DNA from: an uncultured Clostridia bacterium
GTDB lineage: Bacteria > Bacillota > Clostridia > Christensenellales > UBA1242
DNA: 39,666 nt
Direction of reading: 5' to 3'
Assembly (NCBI GenBank): GCA_947625165.1
Contig: CANQNH010000005.1
Location: 1-39,666, forward strand
Translations under genes and position numbers: made by a program
The notes under the pieces: generated by a model
What the model was told of the DNA's origin: nothing
The model's input: only the letters and a program-made list of their open reading frames with translations
Databases searched by the model: none
Shown: positions 10,735 to 26,331 of the stretch, in pieces
How the letters are laid out: every line of letters begins with the position of its first letter
How positions within the stretch are numbered: position 1 is the stretch's first letter

Positions 10735-11679
10735 TCAACCGACACATTTTTTGATTTGTCGAAGCCACTTTGTGACTGTGCCTTCTTCAATGAGAGTTTT
10801 TAAAAGCCCCGGCTTGATTTTTTCAAGTTTCAAAGCATAGGAAATCAAATTCATCATATAGTCAAAATTTTTGTCCTTCATCGGAATTTTGCGTAAGGTC
10901 GCGATGTTGTCATCAATCAACAAAACTTTTTGAGGGTCTTTAATTTGAAAAGTTTTGAAATCGTTGATGAAATTTTGCACCTCTTCATCATAAATCACGT
11001 GAGGGGTGTGCATCACAATGTTGTCAATCGCTGTGTCACCAGACCAATCACCAGCACTGTCCATATTGTCAAAAATTTTCAAATATTTGATGATTTTTTG
11101 ATAGATGAGCGCCTTGTTTTGCTCTTTTTTGAAACACGACCAGCACAAACTGCGATATTTTTCATCGCCGCCAATCACAACTTCTTCGCCTTCCGTCACA
11201 ATCAAGCCCTTCACAAAACGACCGTTCATAATTGCTTTCTTGCCGCACTCACAAACACTTTTGACTTCTTGAATACTGTCCGAAACTTCCAAAAGACGCT
11301 TGCTGCCTTCAAAAAGTTCACCCTTGAAATTGGTTTTCAGCCCATAGCACAAAACAGGCACACTTTCGGCAATTTCGCGCAGTTGGTCAATTTGCTTTTT
11401 TGTGCAAAATTGGCATTCATCCACAATCACAACTTCAACTTTCTCTTTTTCATTGGCTGCGGCAAACAAATCCGCTATGCTCTCATTTTCAGCAAACGAA
11501 ACGCAAGGCGCAGTCAAGCCGATGCGCGATGTCACCTCATTTTCCTTGCTGCGAGTGTCAAGTTTTGGTTTCAAAAGCAAAACACTGATGCCTTTTTGAA
11601 GATAGTTAAACCTGCACATAAGCGCCGATGCGGTTTTTGACGACCCCATCGCACCAAATTTGTAATATAATTTTGCCAT
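10735..11679 (-). CDS. tdk: thymidine kinase with an extra C-terminal domain
   Basis: 314 residues against about 190-200 for a usual type II thymidine kinase, which phosphorylates thymidine in the salvage pathway. Kinase part: P-loop GAMGSSKT (9-16, Ser in place of the Gly before Lys), VDECQF with catalytic E88, and zinc cysteines C143/C145 and C179/C182. Residues 192-314 form an added domain with GDWSGDT, a Y-x5-NFINDFKTF segment (230-244) and the end TKWLRQIKK; this resembles DUF6508 as I remember it. AAAGGAGG precedes the ATG. In B. subtilis tdk lies beside rho; here a Rho-like gene is 2.8 kb away on the same strand. Confidence 0.88.
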   Translation of the reverse strand: MAKLYYKFGAMGSSKTASALMCRFNYLQKGISVLLLKPKLDTRSKENEVTSRIGLTAPCVSFAENESIADLFAAANEKEKVEVVIVDECQFCTKKQIDQLREIAESVPVLCYGLKTNFKGELFEGSKRLLEVSDSIQEVKSVCECGKKAIMNGRFVKGLIVTEGEEVVIGGDEKYRSLCWSCFKKEQNKALIYQKIIKYLKIFDNMDSAGDWSGDTAIDNIVMHTPHVIYDEEVQNFINDFKTFQIKDPQKVLLIDDNIATLRKIPMKDKNFDYMMNLISYALKLEKIKPGLLKTLIEEGTVTKWLRQIKKCVG

Positions 11680-13803: not shown

Positions 13804-14382
13804 ATGGAAAAACATCTGACACAAAAACAAGCAATCCAAGCCATTCACAAATATCTCAACACTTATGCACACTCAAAGTCAGCCAGTGACTGTGTTAAAC
13901 GTGCCTACGAAACAAAATGGTATTCGATCAATGCTGAAAACGATATGACGATTTATGCTCTTGCTGCCATTCTCATCAAGAAAGAAGAAAAATTGAAAAC
14001 TTCGGCTGAGCCGAAAAAGGATAAAATCATCAAAAGCATCGAAACCTATTTGGATTTCGTCAATGAGTTTGGCAAAGTGAGTGACCATATCCATTACAAA
14101 TTTATTGATTTCCCAAGTGCCGAAAAGTCAGAAAAAAATTATGGCCCTGACTATGCAAAGGCCAGGGCTATTATGCTGAAATCGTTCAAAAAAGAGTGTA
14201 GCAAAGAACTTTCTGAGGTCAAACGTGAAAATGGTGACCGGTTTGTTGACAATGTGAAAGAAGTTTTTTCTGGGATAGGTGAAGAAATTGCTGGCATATT
14301 TGACAGCCCTGCACATTCGGAAACCACAGAAGAAAAGCAGGAACGTGAAGAGAAAAATGACTATCTCAACCGCATTCTTTAA
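13804..14382 (+). CDS. unrecognised protein, 192 residues
   Basis: I do not recognise a family. The translation is charged and predicted mostly helical, has no signal peptide or membrane segment, and ends in a run of Glu/Lys (EEKQEREEKNDYLNRIL). A glycine-containing amphipathic stretch (VKEVFSGIGEEIAGIFDSP, about 149-167) might pack against a membrane or partner. The upstream region has AAGGGG close to the ATG. It has its own promoter and shares a bidirectional terminator with the convergent Rho-like gene, so it is a single-gene unit. Real-gene status rests on promoter, start and codon use matching neighbours. Confidence 0.75.
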   Translation: MEKHLTQKQAIQAIHKYLNTYAHSKSASDCVKRAYETKWYSINAENDMTIYALAAILIKKEEKLKTSAEPKKDKIIKSIETYLDFVNEFGKVSDHIHYKFIDFPSAEKSEKNYGPDYAKARAIMLKSFKKECSKELSEVKRENGDRFVDNVKEVFSGIGEEIAGIFDSPAHSETTEEKQEREEKNDYLNRIL

Positions 14383-14481: not shown

Positions 14482-14512
14482 CTCCAAACTTTCGTTTGGG
14501 GCTTTCTTTTTT
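14482..14512. terminator. bidirectional terminator between the 13804 gene and the Rho-like gene
   Basis: 14482-14489 pairs with 14494-14501 around a 4-base loop (core CCAAAC/GTTTGG). T-rich DNA follows on the plus strand, and an A run before the stem gives T residues on the minus strand. Confidence 0.75.
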
Positions 14513-14517
14513 GTTTT

Positions 14518-15702
14518 TCATAACTCAACTTTGTTGCAAACTTTGTAAACCGCCGAAACAAACAATGGGTCAATTTTGTCAACGTCATCAACAGTTGTGA
14601 AAAGGGTGGTGTTGTGACCACTTTTGTCCGCTTTTGCAAGCATAACAACTTTTTTGACAAGTGTGTTTGATGCCTCTGTGTGTCCCATTGATGTTTTTGA
14701 GTTGTTTTTGAAGGCAAAATCAACAATATTTGCAATCGAAACAAAATCCTCCACAAAAACCGCCAACGAAAATCCGCACTGTTGAAGGTGTTTGATATGT
14801 TCAACAAAAATGTTGAGTGTTTCGTTGATTTGATATGGGTTGTCCTCATATGGCAAAGCAAAAACATTGTCAAATCCAAGTTGTTTGAGCAAGGTTTCTT
14901 CTTCTGGCATCACATTTGGAAACAATCCAATTGTGACAATTCCATTTGATTTGAGTTTTGACACTAAGTTTTTTGTTGTTGGATTTTCAGCAAATTTTGG
15001 TGTGTTCAACATATATCTTCCGCCCAGCAACAAAGATGTTTGACCAAAAGCAAAGCGCTTCTCTGGGAGTGTGGGTTGAAGTTCAACTGTTTTTCGCTGA
15101 TACGTTTTTGCGTTTTCAAAGTTGACACTGTCAAGAGTGTCAAGAATATATTCTTTGTTCGCGTTCATTTCAACTGCCGTTCCGGTGATGAAGTCATATG
15201 GTTGCAGGGTTGGATAGTTGCTTTTCTTGACCAAAACGGACTTCCTTTCGCCGCTTTGATTTTGAAGGAACATTTCTTTTTCGCTTTTGTCGCAAAGCAC
15301 GCCGCTGACGCGGATTGGATTGATTTTTTTGCGATAAATTTCAACATCAACTTGCTTGAATTGCACAACTTTGTTGACGTGTGGTTTGTCGTCGCCTGCG
15401 GATTTGATGGAATAATCCTTTCCGGTTATGCTTGAAAGTTCTGCCAAAATGCCGTTTATGTTGGAAAGTTCCTTATACGGACGCCCTTGACGAAGTGGGA
15501 GTGGCTGCAAGTCATCGCCAGCAAGAATTTTGTTCATAACAAAATTTATATGGTCGTTTCGCTTGATTGTGGTCGGTGCAGAATCGCCGAAAACTCTTGC
15601 CAAAGCACGCAACTCATAAATTCCAAGTGATTCGATGAGCGAAAGGCAACTTTGTTGAGATTTGGTCAAATCTTTATAGTCAAAATTACTTTTTTTTGCC
15701 AT
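14518..15702 (-). CDS. divergent Rho-like protein lacking the Walker A motif
   Basis: 394 residues with Rho's architecture end to end. Rho_N-like: LGIYELRALARVFG (26-39) then KRNDHINFVMNKI. Cold-shock-like RNA-binding region 130-200: SGVLCDKSEKEMFL and VLVKKSNYPTLQPYDFITG align with Rho's GVLE...GFLR and VYVSPSQIRRFGLRTGD. RecA-like region 215-394: MPEEETLLKQL aligns with Rho's RPEEVTDMQR, and FVEDFVSIANIVDFAF with LLDSITRLARAYN. Where Rho has PPRAGKT, this has NTPKFAENPTTKN (232-244), so no P-loop; the arginine finger region (VDDVDKIDPLF) has no Arg. ATPase activity is therefore unlikely. Start ATG 15702 follows AAAGGAG by 11 bases. It could be the only Rho descendant here, or a paralogue. 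Confidence 0.72.
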   Translation of the reverse strand: MAKKSNFDYKDLTKSQQSCLSLIESLGIYELRALARVFGDSAPTTIKRNDHINFVMNKILAGDDLQPLPLRQGRPYKELSNINGILAELSSITGKDYSIKSAGDDKPHVNKVVQFKQVDVEIYRKKINPIRVSGVLCDKSEKEMFLQNQSGERKSVLVKKSNYPTLQPYDFITGTAVEMNANKEYILDTLDSVNFENAKTYQRKTVELQPTLPEKRFAFGQTSLLLGGRYMLNTPKFAENPTTKNLVSKLKSNGIVTIGLFPNVMPEEETLLKQLGFDNVFALPYEDNPYQINETLNIFVEHIKHLQQCGFSLAVFVEDFVSIANIVDFAFKNNSKTSMGHTEASNTLVKKVVMLAKADKSGHNTTLFTTVDDVDKIDPLFVSAVYKVCNKVEL

Positions 15703-15750: not shown

Positions 15751-15779
15751 ATTATACCAAATTCAAAAGAAATCTCAAA
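15751..15779 (-). promoter_or_regulatory. promoter of the Rho-like gene
   Basis: On the minus strand: TTTGAG (15779-15774), 17 bp, TATAAT (15756-15751) with extended -10 TGG. Confidence 0.7.
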
Positions 15780-17599: not shown

Positions 17600-18787
17600 A
17601 TGAAACAAGTCGTGGAAATTTCAAAAGAAGAAATTGCAGATTTTTTGCAGCGGGTGTATGCAAACGAAAAAGTAAAAAATTATGTTCAACAATGTTCAAG
17701 TTTGGACAAGGCGGAAAACCTAAATGATATGTTTGGAGATTTTTTGGTCAACTATGCTGTTTCAACCGCTGATTTTTCTGACCAGAGCATCTCAGTGCTT
17801 GCGGATGAGATCGGAAAAACATATCTAAATGCAAAAACCTATATTTCTCGGGAAGATGTTTTTTTGAAGGCGGTTGTGCCACATATGCTTGACATTGTGG
17901 CCGCTCAACTTGATATCAAAAATCCGCATTCTGTTCAAGATTTGGCTTTGATTGCATCTGCTGTTGAAAGTCAAAACAAAAGCAACCGATTTTCAACACA
18001 TTCTTTTAATGGTGCGCTTTTTGATGAGGTTGACAAGAATGGTCTTGACATTTCAAAGGAAAAGTTTGTTGACGAACTCAATCTTCTTGCAAGATATGGG
18101 CTTGCCACGCCTTTTCGGAAGGGCGAACTTCTTGTGTGCGAACTTTCTTATGCAAGTTTTGGCTATTTGCACAAAAATCCTGAGAGGATTTATATGACTT
18201 TTAAGGGGCTGCAAAAACAAGGAAATGACCAAACACTGAGGGAATATTTGCTTGAAGGGCTGACACAACAACTGCAAGAACTTGCTTGTGACGACCAGAA
18301 AAAGAAAGAATTGTTTGACATCGGCAAGAAAATTGTGGAATATTACACCTCATCAAACGATGTTTGTATGGCTGTGTTGAAAAACAGGAACAAAACAAGC
18401 AATCCAACATTGTTTTCTCTTGAATTTATGCTTAACAATTTGTCGGGGATTGTTTTCAAAATTCCGCTTTCCATACGGAAAAACCTTCCGCAAAAGGAAT
18501 TTGCTTCTGCCTGCCGAGAGAAGAATGTTGAAGCTGTTGACCGCATGTTGCAGGAGTGGGTAAAGGCATATCCAGAAATTTCATCGACCATTGAAAAAGC
18601 CAAAGAAGATGCTTTTGTTGATGCACTTTGCAGCGCCGCGCTAAACAATTTTTCAAATGCTTATGCTGACGGACATATCGTGCCAAATGGTCGCTTGGAA
18701 AGAAATGATTTTGCACTTGCAAAATTTGAAGATGCAGTGAAAACCTATCCAACCTTGCATAAAGAAGCACCGACAAAACAGATTTGA
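17600..18787 (+). CDS. unrecognised protein, 395 residues
   Basis: I do not recognise a family. The protein is soluble-looking, mostly helical and without a signal peptide or membrane segment. A readable block is HSFNGALFDEVDKNGLDISK (about 134-153), followed by an ELNLLARYGLATPF helix and LSYASFGYLHKNPERIYMTF; this could be a winged-helix or a substrate-binding surface, but I see no catalytic motif. The Shine-Dalgarno site is weak (GGGG 4 bases before ATG). It lies between a flavoprotein and a PLP enzyme, 49 bp before the latter, suggesting one transcript. Confidence 0.8.
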   Translation: MKQVVEISKEEIADFLQRVYANEKVKNYVQQCSSLDKAENLNDMFGDFLVNYAVSTADFSDQSISVLADEIGKTYLNAKTYISREDVFLKAVVPHMLDIVAAQLDIKNPHSVQDLALIASAVESQNKSNRFSTHSFNGALFDEVDKNGLDISKEKFVDELNLLARYGLATPFRKGELLVCELSYASFGYLHKNPERIYMTFKGLQKQGNDQTLREYLLEGLTQQLQELACDDQKKKELFDIGKKIVEYYTSSNDVCMAVLKNRNKTSNPTLFSLEFMLNNLSGIVFKIPLSIRKNLPQKEFASACREKNVEAVDRMLQEWVKAYPEISSTIEKAKEDAFVDALCSAALNNFSNAYADGHIVPNGRLERNDFALAKFEDAVKTYPTLHKEAPTKQI

Positions 18788-25158: not shown

Positions 25159-26331
25159 ATGAAAAAGAGTTACTATAAATTTGTTTCCCTTGTTTTTGTG
25201 TTTATTTTTCTTCTTTCAATCGTTGTTCCTTTGGGCGAAGTTCTTTCTTTTGACGACGGGTTTTTGGCTGGCTATGCGGATGTGGAAATTGCCAACGAAA
25301 ATCGCCGATTTGGAAGTTTCATCACCACTCATCTTGAGGAAAAAGAGACCAAGGTTGACGGGCAAAAAAGCAAAAAAAATGAAGTTGTTTTCAAACTTTT
25401 TGGATTTATTCCAATTCGGCGTGTTTCGGTGACGCTGTGTGACCAAGAGGAGTTTTATCTTGGAGGTGTGCCGATTGGACTTTCGATATGCACCGATGGG
25501 GCGATTGTTGTCAGCAACGATGGAAATTCGCCTTTGACGGAGGGCGACATCATCACGCACATTGATGGACAAAAGTTTGACAGTCTTGACCAAATTCCAA
25601 GCCTATTGCAAAATGCGGCTGGCGAAGAGATTGAGGTGGAATATTTGCACAAAAACCGACCAATCAGGGCGCTTGTCAAGGCGGACAGAGAAAGCGATGA
25701 TGTGAAACTTGGATTGTGGGTGAAAGATGATGTGAGCGGTGTTGGAACTTTGACTTTTGTCAACAAAAACACTCACAAATATGGCGCACTTGGGCATCCG
25801 ATTTCGGATGTGAACAGTGGAAATGTTGTGCCTGTTTCGTCTGGGAAAATCCTGCCTTGCAATCTGATTGGCATAAACAAGGGCAGAAAGAATGCTCCGG
25901 GGGAACTTAAGTGTGTTTTCATCGCAAATCAAAAGCCAAAAGGGAATATTGTTTGCAACGATAAATTTGGCATAAACGGGGTTTTGACCGATTTGAATGG
26001 GTTGGTTGACGAAAATTTGACTGCAAAAGTTGGTGGAAGGCTGGGCGTCAAACTTGGAAAGGCCAAAATTGTGTCAAGTGTGAGCGGCATAACGGAGGAA
26101 TATGACATTGAAATCATCAAAGCCAATCTTCAAAAATCACCGAACGACAAAAGCATTGTTTTCCGTGTGAAAGACAAGCGGCTTTTGGGGTTGACTGGTG
26201 GAATTGTGCAGGGGATGAGCGGCTCGCCAATTGTTCAAGACGGAAAACTGATTGGTGCAGTCACGCATGTTTTTTTGAACGACCCAACCAAAGGTTTTGG
26301 CGTTTATGCTGACTTTATGATGAACAACTGA
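25159..26331 (+). CDS. spoIVB: SpoIVB signalling peptidase (S55)
   Basis: 390 residues. SpoIVB is made in the forespore, secreted into the intermembrane space, and cuts SpoIVFA to start pro-sigma-K processing. An N-terminal membrane anchor (9-29) is followed by a PDZ domain (about 110-175, including EGDIITHIDGQKF) and the S55 peptidase. Catalytic residues: H213 in GALGHPISD, D339, S354 in GGIVQGMSGSPIVQ. Start ATG 25159 has only a weak GGA upstream. spo0A, its usual downstream neighbour, is missing here; a convergent recombinase follows. Confidence 0.95.
   Translation: MKKSYYKFVSLVFVFIFLLSIVVPLGEVLSFDDGFLAGYADVEIANENRRFGSFITTHLEEKETKVDGQKSKKNEVVFKLFGFIPIRRVSVTLCDQEEFYLGGVPIGLSICTDGAIVVSNDGNSPLTEGDIITHIDGQKFDSLDQIPSLLQNAAGEEIEVEYLHKNRPIRALVKADRESDDVKLGLWVKDDVSGVGTLTFVNKNTHKYGALGHPISDVNSGNVVPVSSGKILPCNLIGINKGRKNAPGELKCVFIANQKPKGNIVCNDKFGINGVLTDLNGLVDENLTAKVGGRLGVKLGKAKIVSSVSGITEEYDIEIIKANLQKSPNDKSIVFRVKDKRLLGLTGGIVQGMSGSPIVQDGKLIGAVTHVFLNDPTKGFGVYADFMMNN

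Follow-up and report, generated by a model that had tools for sequence, protein, structure and literature searches.

The window, by which the whole analysed stretch of 39,666 nucleotides is meant, carries on its minus strand an open frame of 394 codons (P0001, 14518..15702), whose ATG lies at 15702 and whose stop codon ends at 14518, exactly as the earlier note had it. The 394-residue product, a presumably ATPase-dead descendant of Rho, is referred to below as pseudo-Rho. Upstream of the frame lies a promoter-like site TTGAGA-16-TATAAT with TG ahead of the second hexamer (15751..15778, minus strand, 11/12 match), and just behind the stop a terminator-like hairpin CCAAAC-GAAA-GTTTGG followed by a T run (14484..14499, minus strand). 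These signals, previously described as a strong promoter and a terminator, are indeed located on the correct strand, but the region contains hardly more of them (4 promoter-like sites and 2 hairpins) than shuffled sequences do (3.3 and 1.4, respectively). Two other ORFs of the window, of 192 and 395 amino acids (13804-14382 and 17600-18787), have no Pfam match above cut-off. The host genome (G000; 1.04 Mb, 82% complete) belongs to a family (f1) of small-genome Clostridia, some of which originate from animal gut (deer rectum, caecum or colon).

In the loci of the genus (L112-L188) pseudo-Rho stands in a conserved cluster with lgt, a membrane protein and a DivIVA-like protein, in this order. The neighbours in 77 named loci, some of them cut by contig ends, include lgt in 67, the DivIVA-like protein (Pfam E 8e-4, below its cut-off) in 59, an ArsP-like permease in 58 and a small membrane protein in 54. 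The window copy is situated outside the lgt cluster, and nine of its neighbours in the window, when tested, were all absent from the 100 loci searched, hence the window pseudo-Rho, or its surroundings, has moved. The closeness of tdk, formerly taken as a sign of descent from rho, had to be rejected as such, because among the loci compared (flanks up to 6 kb in the genus loci, mostly ~1.5 kb in the intact-Rho loci) tdk was found beside the window copy only. The thymidine kinase itself (10735-11679, minus strand, 314 aa) matches Pfam TK over residues 3-183, its C-terminal ~130 residues being an extension. A gene of a SpoIVB-like peptidase (25159-26322, plus strand), shared with a few of these loci and 79% identical to the L112 copy, hints that sporulation genes are kept in this genome of ~1 Mb.

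The relation to Rho is barely visible from the single sequence. P0001 alone gave no Pfam or NCBIfam match, its best match in the PDB was the Thermotoga maritima Rho with a marginal E of 0.018, and the NCBIfam Rho model TIGR00767 (curated cut-off 509 bits) did not detect any protein of G000 at E 0.001. When 61 genomes were searched with the protein (37 from the genus, including G000, and 24 from different families of the order), 36 gave matches: 35 of the 37 genus genomes, with 23 to 67% identity to P0001 (self excluded), and one genome beyond the genus, G045, in which the single, marginal match covers an N-terminal stretch of a true Rho. The two remaining genus genomes, G009 and G010 (94% and 97% complete), yielded no copy either by the protein search or with the family profile. 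This profile, A1, was built from the 35 genus matches, which are the "genus members" below. All 11 of its matches among PDB chains at E up to 1 are Rho proteins (best 5.4e-8); it retrieves intact Rhos of the order (e.g., G088 and G108), and its alignment by hhalign with 18 of them reaches E 6.4e-28 over 356 columns, while P0001 alone still gives E 2.3e-8 over 339 columns. In agreement with this, the best fold match of the predicted P0001 structure is Rho, the match extending from model residues ~115-132 through 394 and stopping at residue ~345 of the ~419 of E. coli Rho. Up to that point, pseudo-Rho and Rho share common descent and a collinear order of domains according to the hhalign and PDB profile matches, and the possibility that the protein is not Rho at all is ruled out by these matches together with the fold comparison. 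Thus, the relation to Rho and the descent from a true Rho, both proposed earlier, are borne out far beyond chance, and the suggested structure prediction does place Rho at the top. The profile search proposed along with it succeeded with part of the genus members only, Pfam Rho_N being recognized in 17 of the 35 genus members (best 8.9e-6) and Rho_RNA_bind in four, but neither in P0001 itself. The description of the protein as a full-length Rho is too strong, since its structural similarity stops at E. coli residue ~345 and the C-terminal segment is absent.

The domains of pseudo-Rho, all encoded on the minus strand, can be traced as follows. The N-terminal Rho_N-like region of three helices (residues 14-61, 15520..15663; SLGIYELRALAR..APTT..R; modelled helices 14-24, 28-37 and 48-61) aligns to the Rhos of the order and is followed by a basic GRPxK motif (GRPYK, residues 73-77, 15472..15486), which presumably resembles the core of an AT-hook. 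The motif is invariant in 35/35 genus members, in which a Pfam scan at E 0.01 listed only Rho_N and Rho_RNA_bind; in the corresponding columns of 17 intact Rhos, G is present in 17, R in 13, P in 14 and K in 13. An OB/cold-shock-like domain (about residues 129-195, 15118..15318) was revealed by the fold match, with beta strands within residues 130-193. The remainder (residues 215-394, 14521..15060) is a RecA-like core devoid of motor residues, its fold being supported by the model and the fold comparison, which ends at the equivalent of E. coli Rho residue ~345. Within this core, the former P-loop position is occupied by TPKFAENPTT (residues 234-243, 14974..15003), containing no GK[ST], and the former DERPEE motif by NVMPEE (residues 263-268, 14899..14916), in which Glu211 and Arg212 are lost and the Glu214 position is kept. 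Besides GRPxK, the invariant positions in A1 are G27, E30, L31, R32, R36, G39, P43, T44 and R48 in the N-terminal region and, further on, Q117, D170, G227, E267 and L355. The Glu214 position and an Asp of the OB domain are kept in 35/35 members, and the Asn of the VNG motif in 34/35. The RNA-contact residues of the OB domain are kept in part: aromatic residues occupy the Phe64 and Tyr80 positions in 21/35 members each, the Phe62 position is Phe or Tyr in 5/35, and Arg66 is retained in 2/35. Positions such as Phe64 or Glu211, here and below, are numbered as in E. coli Rho.

The loss of motor residues was followed in an alignment of 93 rows that joins 17 intact reference Rhos, the 35 genus members and 41 rows from other f1 genera; L198, truncated by the end of its contig, was omitted, and G229 is counted twice (L099 and L211) among the 41. 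GK[TS] at the P-loop columns, Glu211 and Arg212 are each present in 0/35 genus members; the Asp265 column contains Asp in 0/35 as well, and the nearby D319 is nearly invariant. The segment of Arg353 and of the arginine finger Arg366 is a gap in 35/35 members, while Arg is present there in 17/17 reference Rhos. All scored motor residues are carried by the references, which were selected by their P-loop, DERPEE and DSxTR motifs, so that only Arg353 and the finger provide an independent comparison. Walker A, the catalytic Glu, Arg212, the arginine finger and the C-terminal segment are thus lost in the genus. The earlier claim of a missing ATP-binding motif holds, then, for the entire genus, whereas that of an arginine-finger region lacking Arg proved correct but understated, since the whole Arg353/Arg366 segment is missing and not just the Arg. 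A P-loop in another register was ruled out, as [AG]x4GK[ST] is absent anywhere in the 35/35 aligned members; stray GKS or GKT in five of them (residues 153, 213, 217, 222 and, in one member, 312 with 364) have no Walker A spacing. Among the 41 f1 rows from outside the genus, GK[TS] remains in three, Glu211 in three, Arg212 in 20 and the finger Arg in one. We infer from these losses that ATP hydrolysis and movement along RNA are both beyond pseudo-Rho, which consequently would not be able to terminate transcription in the way Rho does.

A dead subunit might poison a hexamer, and the earlier note considered the protein as a regulator or antagonist of Rho; such a role would call for an intact Rho in the same cell. 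The search for a second rho suggested there was run, and none was found in G000 (82% complete), which contains no TIGR00767 match. The 37 genus genomes contain no intact Rho by the same search: weak matches occurred in eight of them, those in G002 and G011 being pseudo-Rho itself and the other six being short and confined to model positions 133-221, within ORFs of 302-365 aa. Nor did any of the 197 sampled genomes of the family exceed the Rho cut-off (best 191 bits, G447), while A1 found matches in 170 of these genomes and in 37 of 42 genera. In the control set of 14 known genomes the TIGR00767 search gave matches in 12, above cut-off in 8, and many of the relatives' genomes are 97-100% complete. 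Each of 29 genomes inspected in this respect has one Rho-type gene, the additional weak matches in them looking ATP-synthase-like or like short P-loop matches. With no intact partner in G000, the genus or the family sample, the regulator or antagonist role is close to refuted for this lineage, unless an intact rho escaped every one of the assemblies searched, and we ascribe to it a negligible probability. The ATP-synt_ab profile likewise found no match in G000 versus 14/14 controls, so that an F1-type ATPase also seems to be missing.

Decay of Rho is graded within the family. In other genera of f1 the P-loop and DERPEE positions read PKKSGKTF and DKRPEN (L194), PKGSGKTS and DKRPED (L190), EKGSGKSE and DKRPED (L193), DKNSNKSD and DKRPEE (L095), and PKNVDYST and DERPED in L189, which retains the finger Arg. 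The genera g144 and g175 were missed by A1, yet they carry Rho-like relics, of 299 and 337 aa in two g144 genomes and of 287-305 aa in five g175 genomes, the latter with no match to the N-terminal part; in three g147 genomes the lengths are 306-344 aa. The A1 match is also lacking in g152, g158 and g159. Among 396 sampled genomes of the order, some TIGR00767 match was obtained in 371 and a match above cut-off in 215, the weak ones possibly being other P-loop proteins. Inspection of the motifs of low scorers revealed decayed single Rhos in the families f4, f6, f9, f15 and f20, besides f1. Of 76 rows chosen for a tree, the five scored sites are complete in 40 and incomplete in 36, a ratio that represents no frequency, since the rows were hand-picked and low-scoring Rhos deliberately sought. 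The decayed rows comprise 16 from f1, 10 from f15, seven from f4 and one each from f6, f9 and f20, of which the single rows could be binning errors. On this tree, obtained by a quick method and with long branches meeting, at least seven changes of state are required, and f4, f6, f15 and f20 each contain both states; the f1 Rhos are located on one side of a branch with support 99, in line with vertical descent. The degree of decay varies: L228 (f6) lacks the finger Arg alone among the five sites, and L225 (f4) lacks Arg212 and the finger. A decayed Rho is the sole Rho-type gene found for L054 (G044), L056 and L226 in f4 and for L234-L245 except L236 and L238 in f15. The f4 genomes with a decayed Rho measure 1.6 to 3.3 Mb; extreme genome reduction is therefore not required. 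L226 belongs to the f4 genus g72, for which near-closed genomes of 3.3-3.5 Mb are available. In several genomes of f13 and f32 (e.g., G048, G076 and G068) Rho-type matches are absent or very weak, and outright loss of Rho is possible there. Altogether, the whole family f1 appears to have traded Rho for a motor-less descendant, and partial or full losses appear to recur in the order, five further families of which show lost ATPase sites as well.

These data bring up the chief rival explanation, namely that pseudo-Rho is a relic on its way out, i.e., that Rho became dispensable, kept a weak leftover role and decays stepwise before deletion. Its fast evolution and variable length, down to the short g175 relics, the long tree branches, the absence of a copy in 2/37 genus genomes and the missing or very weak matches in f13 and f32 would all agree with such a course. 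However, the frames are open in all 35 genus matches (371-435 codons stop to stop, with no internal stops), and the GRPxK and other motifs are invariant in 35/35. The dN/dS ratio, calculated for the whole gene with 25 of the 35 sequences, ranged from 0.045 to 0.204 in eight of only nine pairs with at least 60% identity, the ninth pair being saturated; in most pairs dS is close to saturation or past it, and the two least saturated pairs gave 0.045 (dS 0.60) and 0.059 (dS 0.18). Judging from these values, the pseudo-Rho frame is kept by purifying selection, although the branches of the family are long, and the earlier supposition of selection for an intact frame gains support. Considering also that decay is found in the larger f4 genomes, we regard the relic explanation as unlikely, though it deserves to be taken seriously. 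Far less probable is a sensor function in which the degenerate RecA pocket would still hold a nucleotide or some other small ligand: the model gives the RecA-like fold and the helix behind the former P-loop with high confidence, but the residues of the former pocket are not conserved in the genus, and the P-loop columns show many letters.

The coding purine bias was reported to be much weaker in Bacilli lacking rho, a mild bias remaining, in the accessible part of that work (PMC13323073). It was determined here for the window and for 77 stretches no longer than 20 kb. Each genome contributed a single stretch, apart from G083 with L297 and L298, and three stretches under 4 kb (L319, L323 and L330) were omitted. 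The purine excess on the majority strand was 0.086 in the genus (9 stretches, window included), 0.122 in other f1 genera (12) and 0.056 in intact-Rho families (20, of which 11 are from genomes with Rho motifs read). Both f1 groups are thus shifted in the higher direction (Mann-Whitney p 0.21 and 0.0003, respectively), with a G+C of 0.50 in the intact families versus about 0.35. The values for f32 and f13 were 0.097 (3 stretches) and 0.088 (2). Within families, with G187 and G256 (five sites kept) and G314 (motifs unread) omitted, decayed and intact groups gave 0.068 (n=10) and 0.071 (n=9, motifs read in 4) in f15 (p 0.90), and 0.023 and 0.016 (n=5 each) in f4 (p 0.84). No relaxation of the coding purine bias was therefore found in the decayed lineages of f1, f4 and f15, meaning that the bias is not driven by Rho in these bacteria, that Rho was lost only recently, or that its dead form still fulfils part of the task. 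Where genes converge, intrinsic terminators were more frequent in f1 (18/40) than in intact families (12/42), though not significantly (Fisher p 0.17). The counts were 7/20 (decayed) and 5/13 (intact) in f15 and 2/13 and 1/7 in f4, with G187, G256 and G314 grouped among the decayed, and 2/5 in f32 and f13 together.

Taken together, these results suggest with good though incomplete confidence that the window gene is the host's own Rho, vertically inherited, which has lost its motor and now probably serves as a passive, putative nucleic-acid binder. Passive binding of RNA or DNA would be the likeliest remaining activity: the Rho_N helices, the invariant GRPxK patch and the OB domain may hold the nucleic acid, the dead RecA domain may act as a scaffold, possibly in an oligomer, and pseudo-Rho perhaps still meets NusG, present in 39/41 genomes, or RNA polymerase. 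E. coli Rho was described, in the available portion of PMC12133298, as binding dsDNA via its primary site and as a possible nonspecific repressor. Against passive binding speaks the partial retention of RNA contacts in the OB domain, and no single retained piece explains all cases, because the relics of g175 and g144 are shorter and mostly devoid of the N-terminal part. The reading as the host's own, disarmed Rho is also opposed by the lack of a copy in the two genus genomes, the unrelaxed purine bias, and the quick, long-branched character of the tree. More tentatively, and with the odds clearly against it, one may suppose that in this order Rho was repeatedly turned into a non-enzymatic binder still marking pyrimidine-rich, mostly antisense transcripts, or AT-rich DNA via Rho_N and GRPxK; if true, this would explain both the selection despite the lost motor residues and the unrelaxed purine bias. 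The apparent exchange of Rho for a motor-less descendant throughout f1, along with the ATPase sites lost in the other families, would suggest that Rho is in part valuable independently of ATP. Such proteins, the graded ones included, could serve as natural separation-of-function variants for asking about the roles of Rho beyond translocation, and searches scoring only the presence of a Rho homologue may misjudge genomes of this kind.

No earlier report of a motor-less Rho was found in the open-licence library searched. Atypical Rhos with N-terminal insertions were reportedly described by Moreira et al. in NAR in 2024. They share an altered N-terminal region with pseudo-Rho, theirs consisting of extra disordered regions according to PMC13269538, the accessible part of which does not speak of a lost motor as in pseudo-Rho. 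Rho, an ATP-driven motor that stops transcription, is among the best studied of bacterial motors, and the same source cites its presence in about 90% of bacteria. Compared with Rho proper (TIGR00767; PDB 3l0o, 1pv4 and 8q3n), pseudo-Rho is devoid of Walker A, Glu211, Arg212, the arginine finger and the C-terminal ~75 residues, and escapes the TIGR00767 model. F1/V-type and secretion ATPases possess the same RecA-like ring ATPase fold, but gave a lower fold score (best 15.8) and are absent among the PDB sequence matches of A1. A parallel is provided by the Rho-less Bacilli and Cyanobacteria (PMC13323073 and PMC13289151, respectively, as represented by their accessible parts), in which likewise no working Rho is expected. 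In those Bacilli the purine bias is weaker, whereas in the lineages with decayed Rho it is not relaxed; and while rho is absent from the Bacilli and Cyanobacteria, here its dead descendant is kept under selection.
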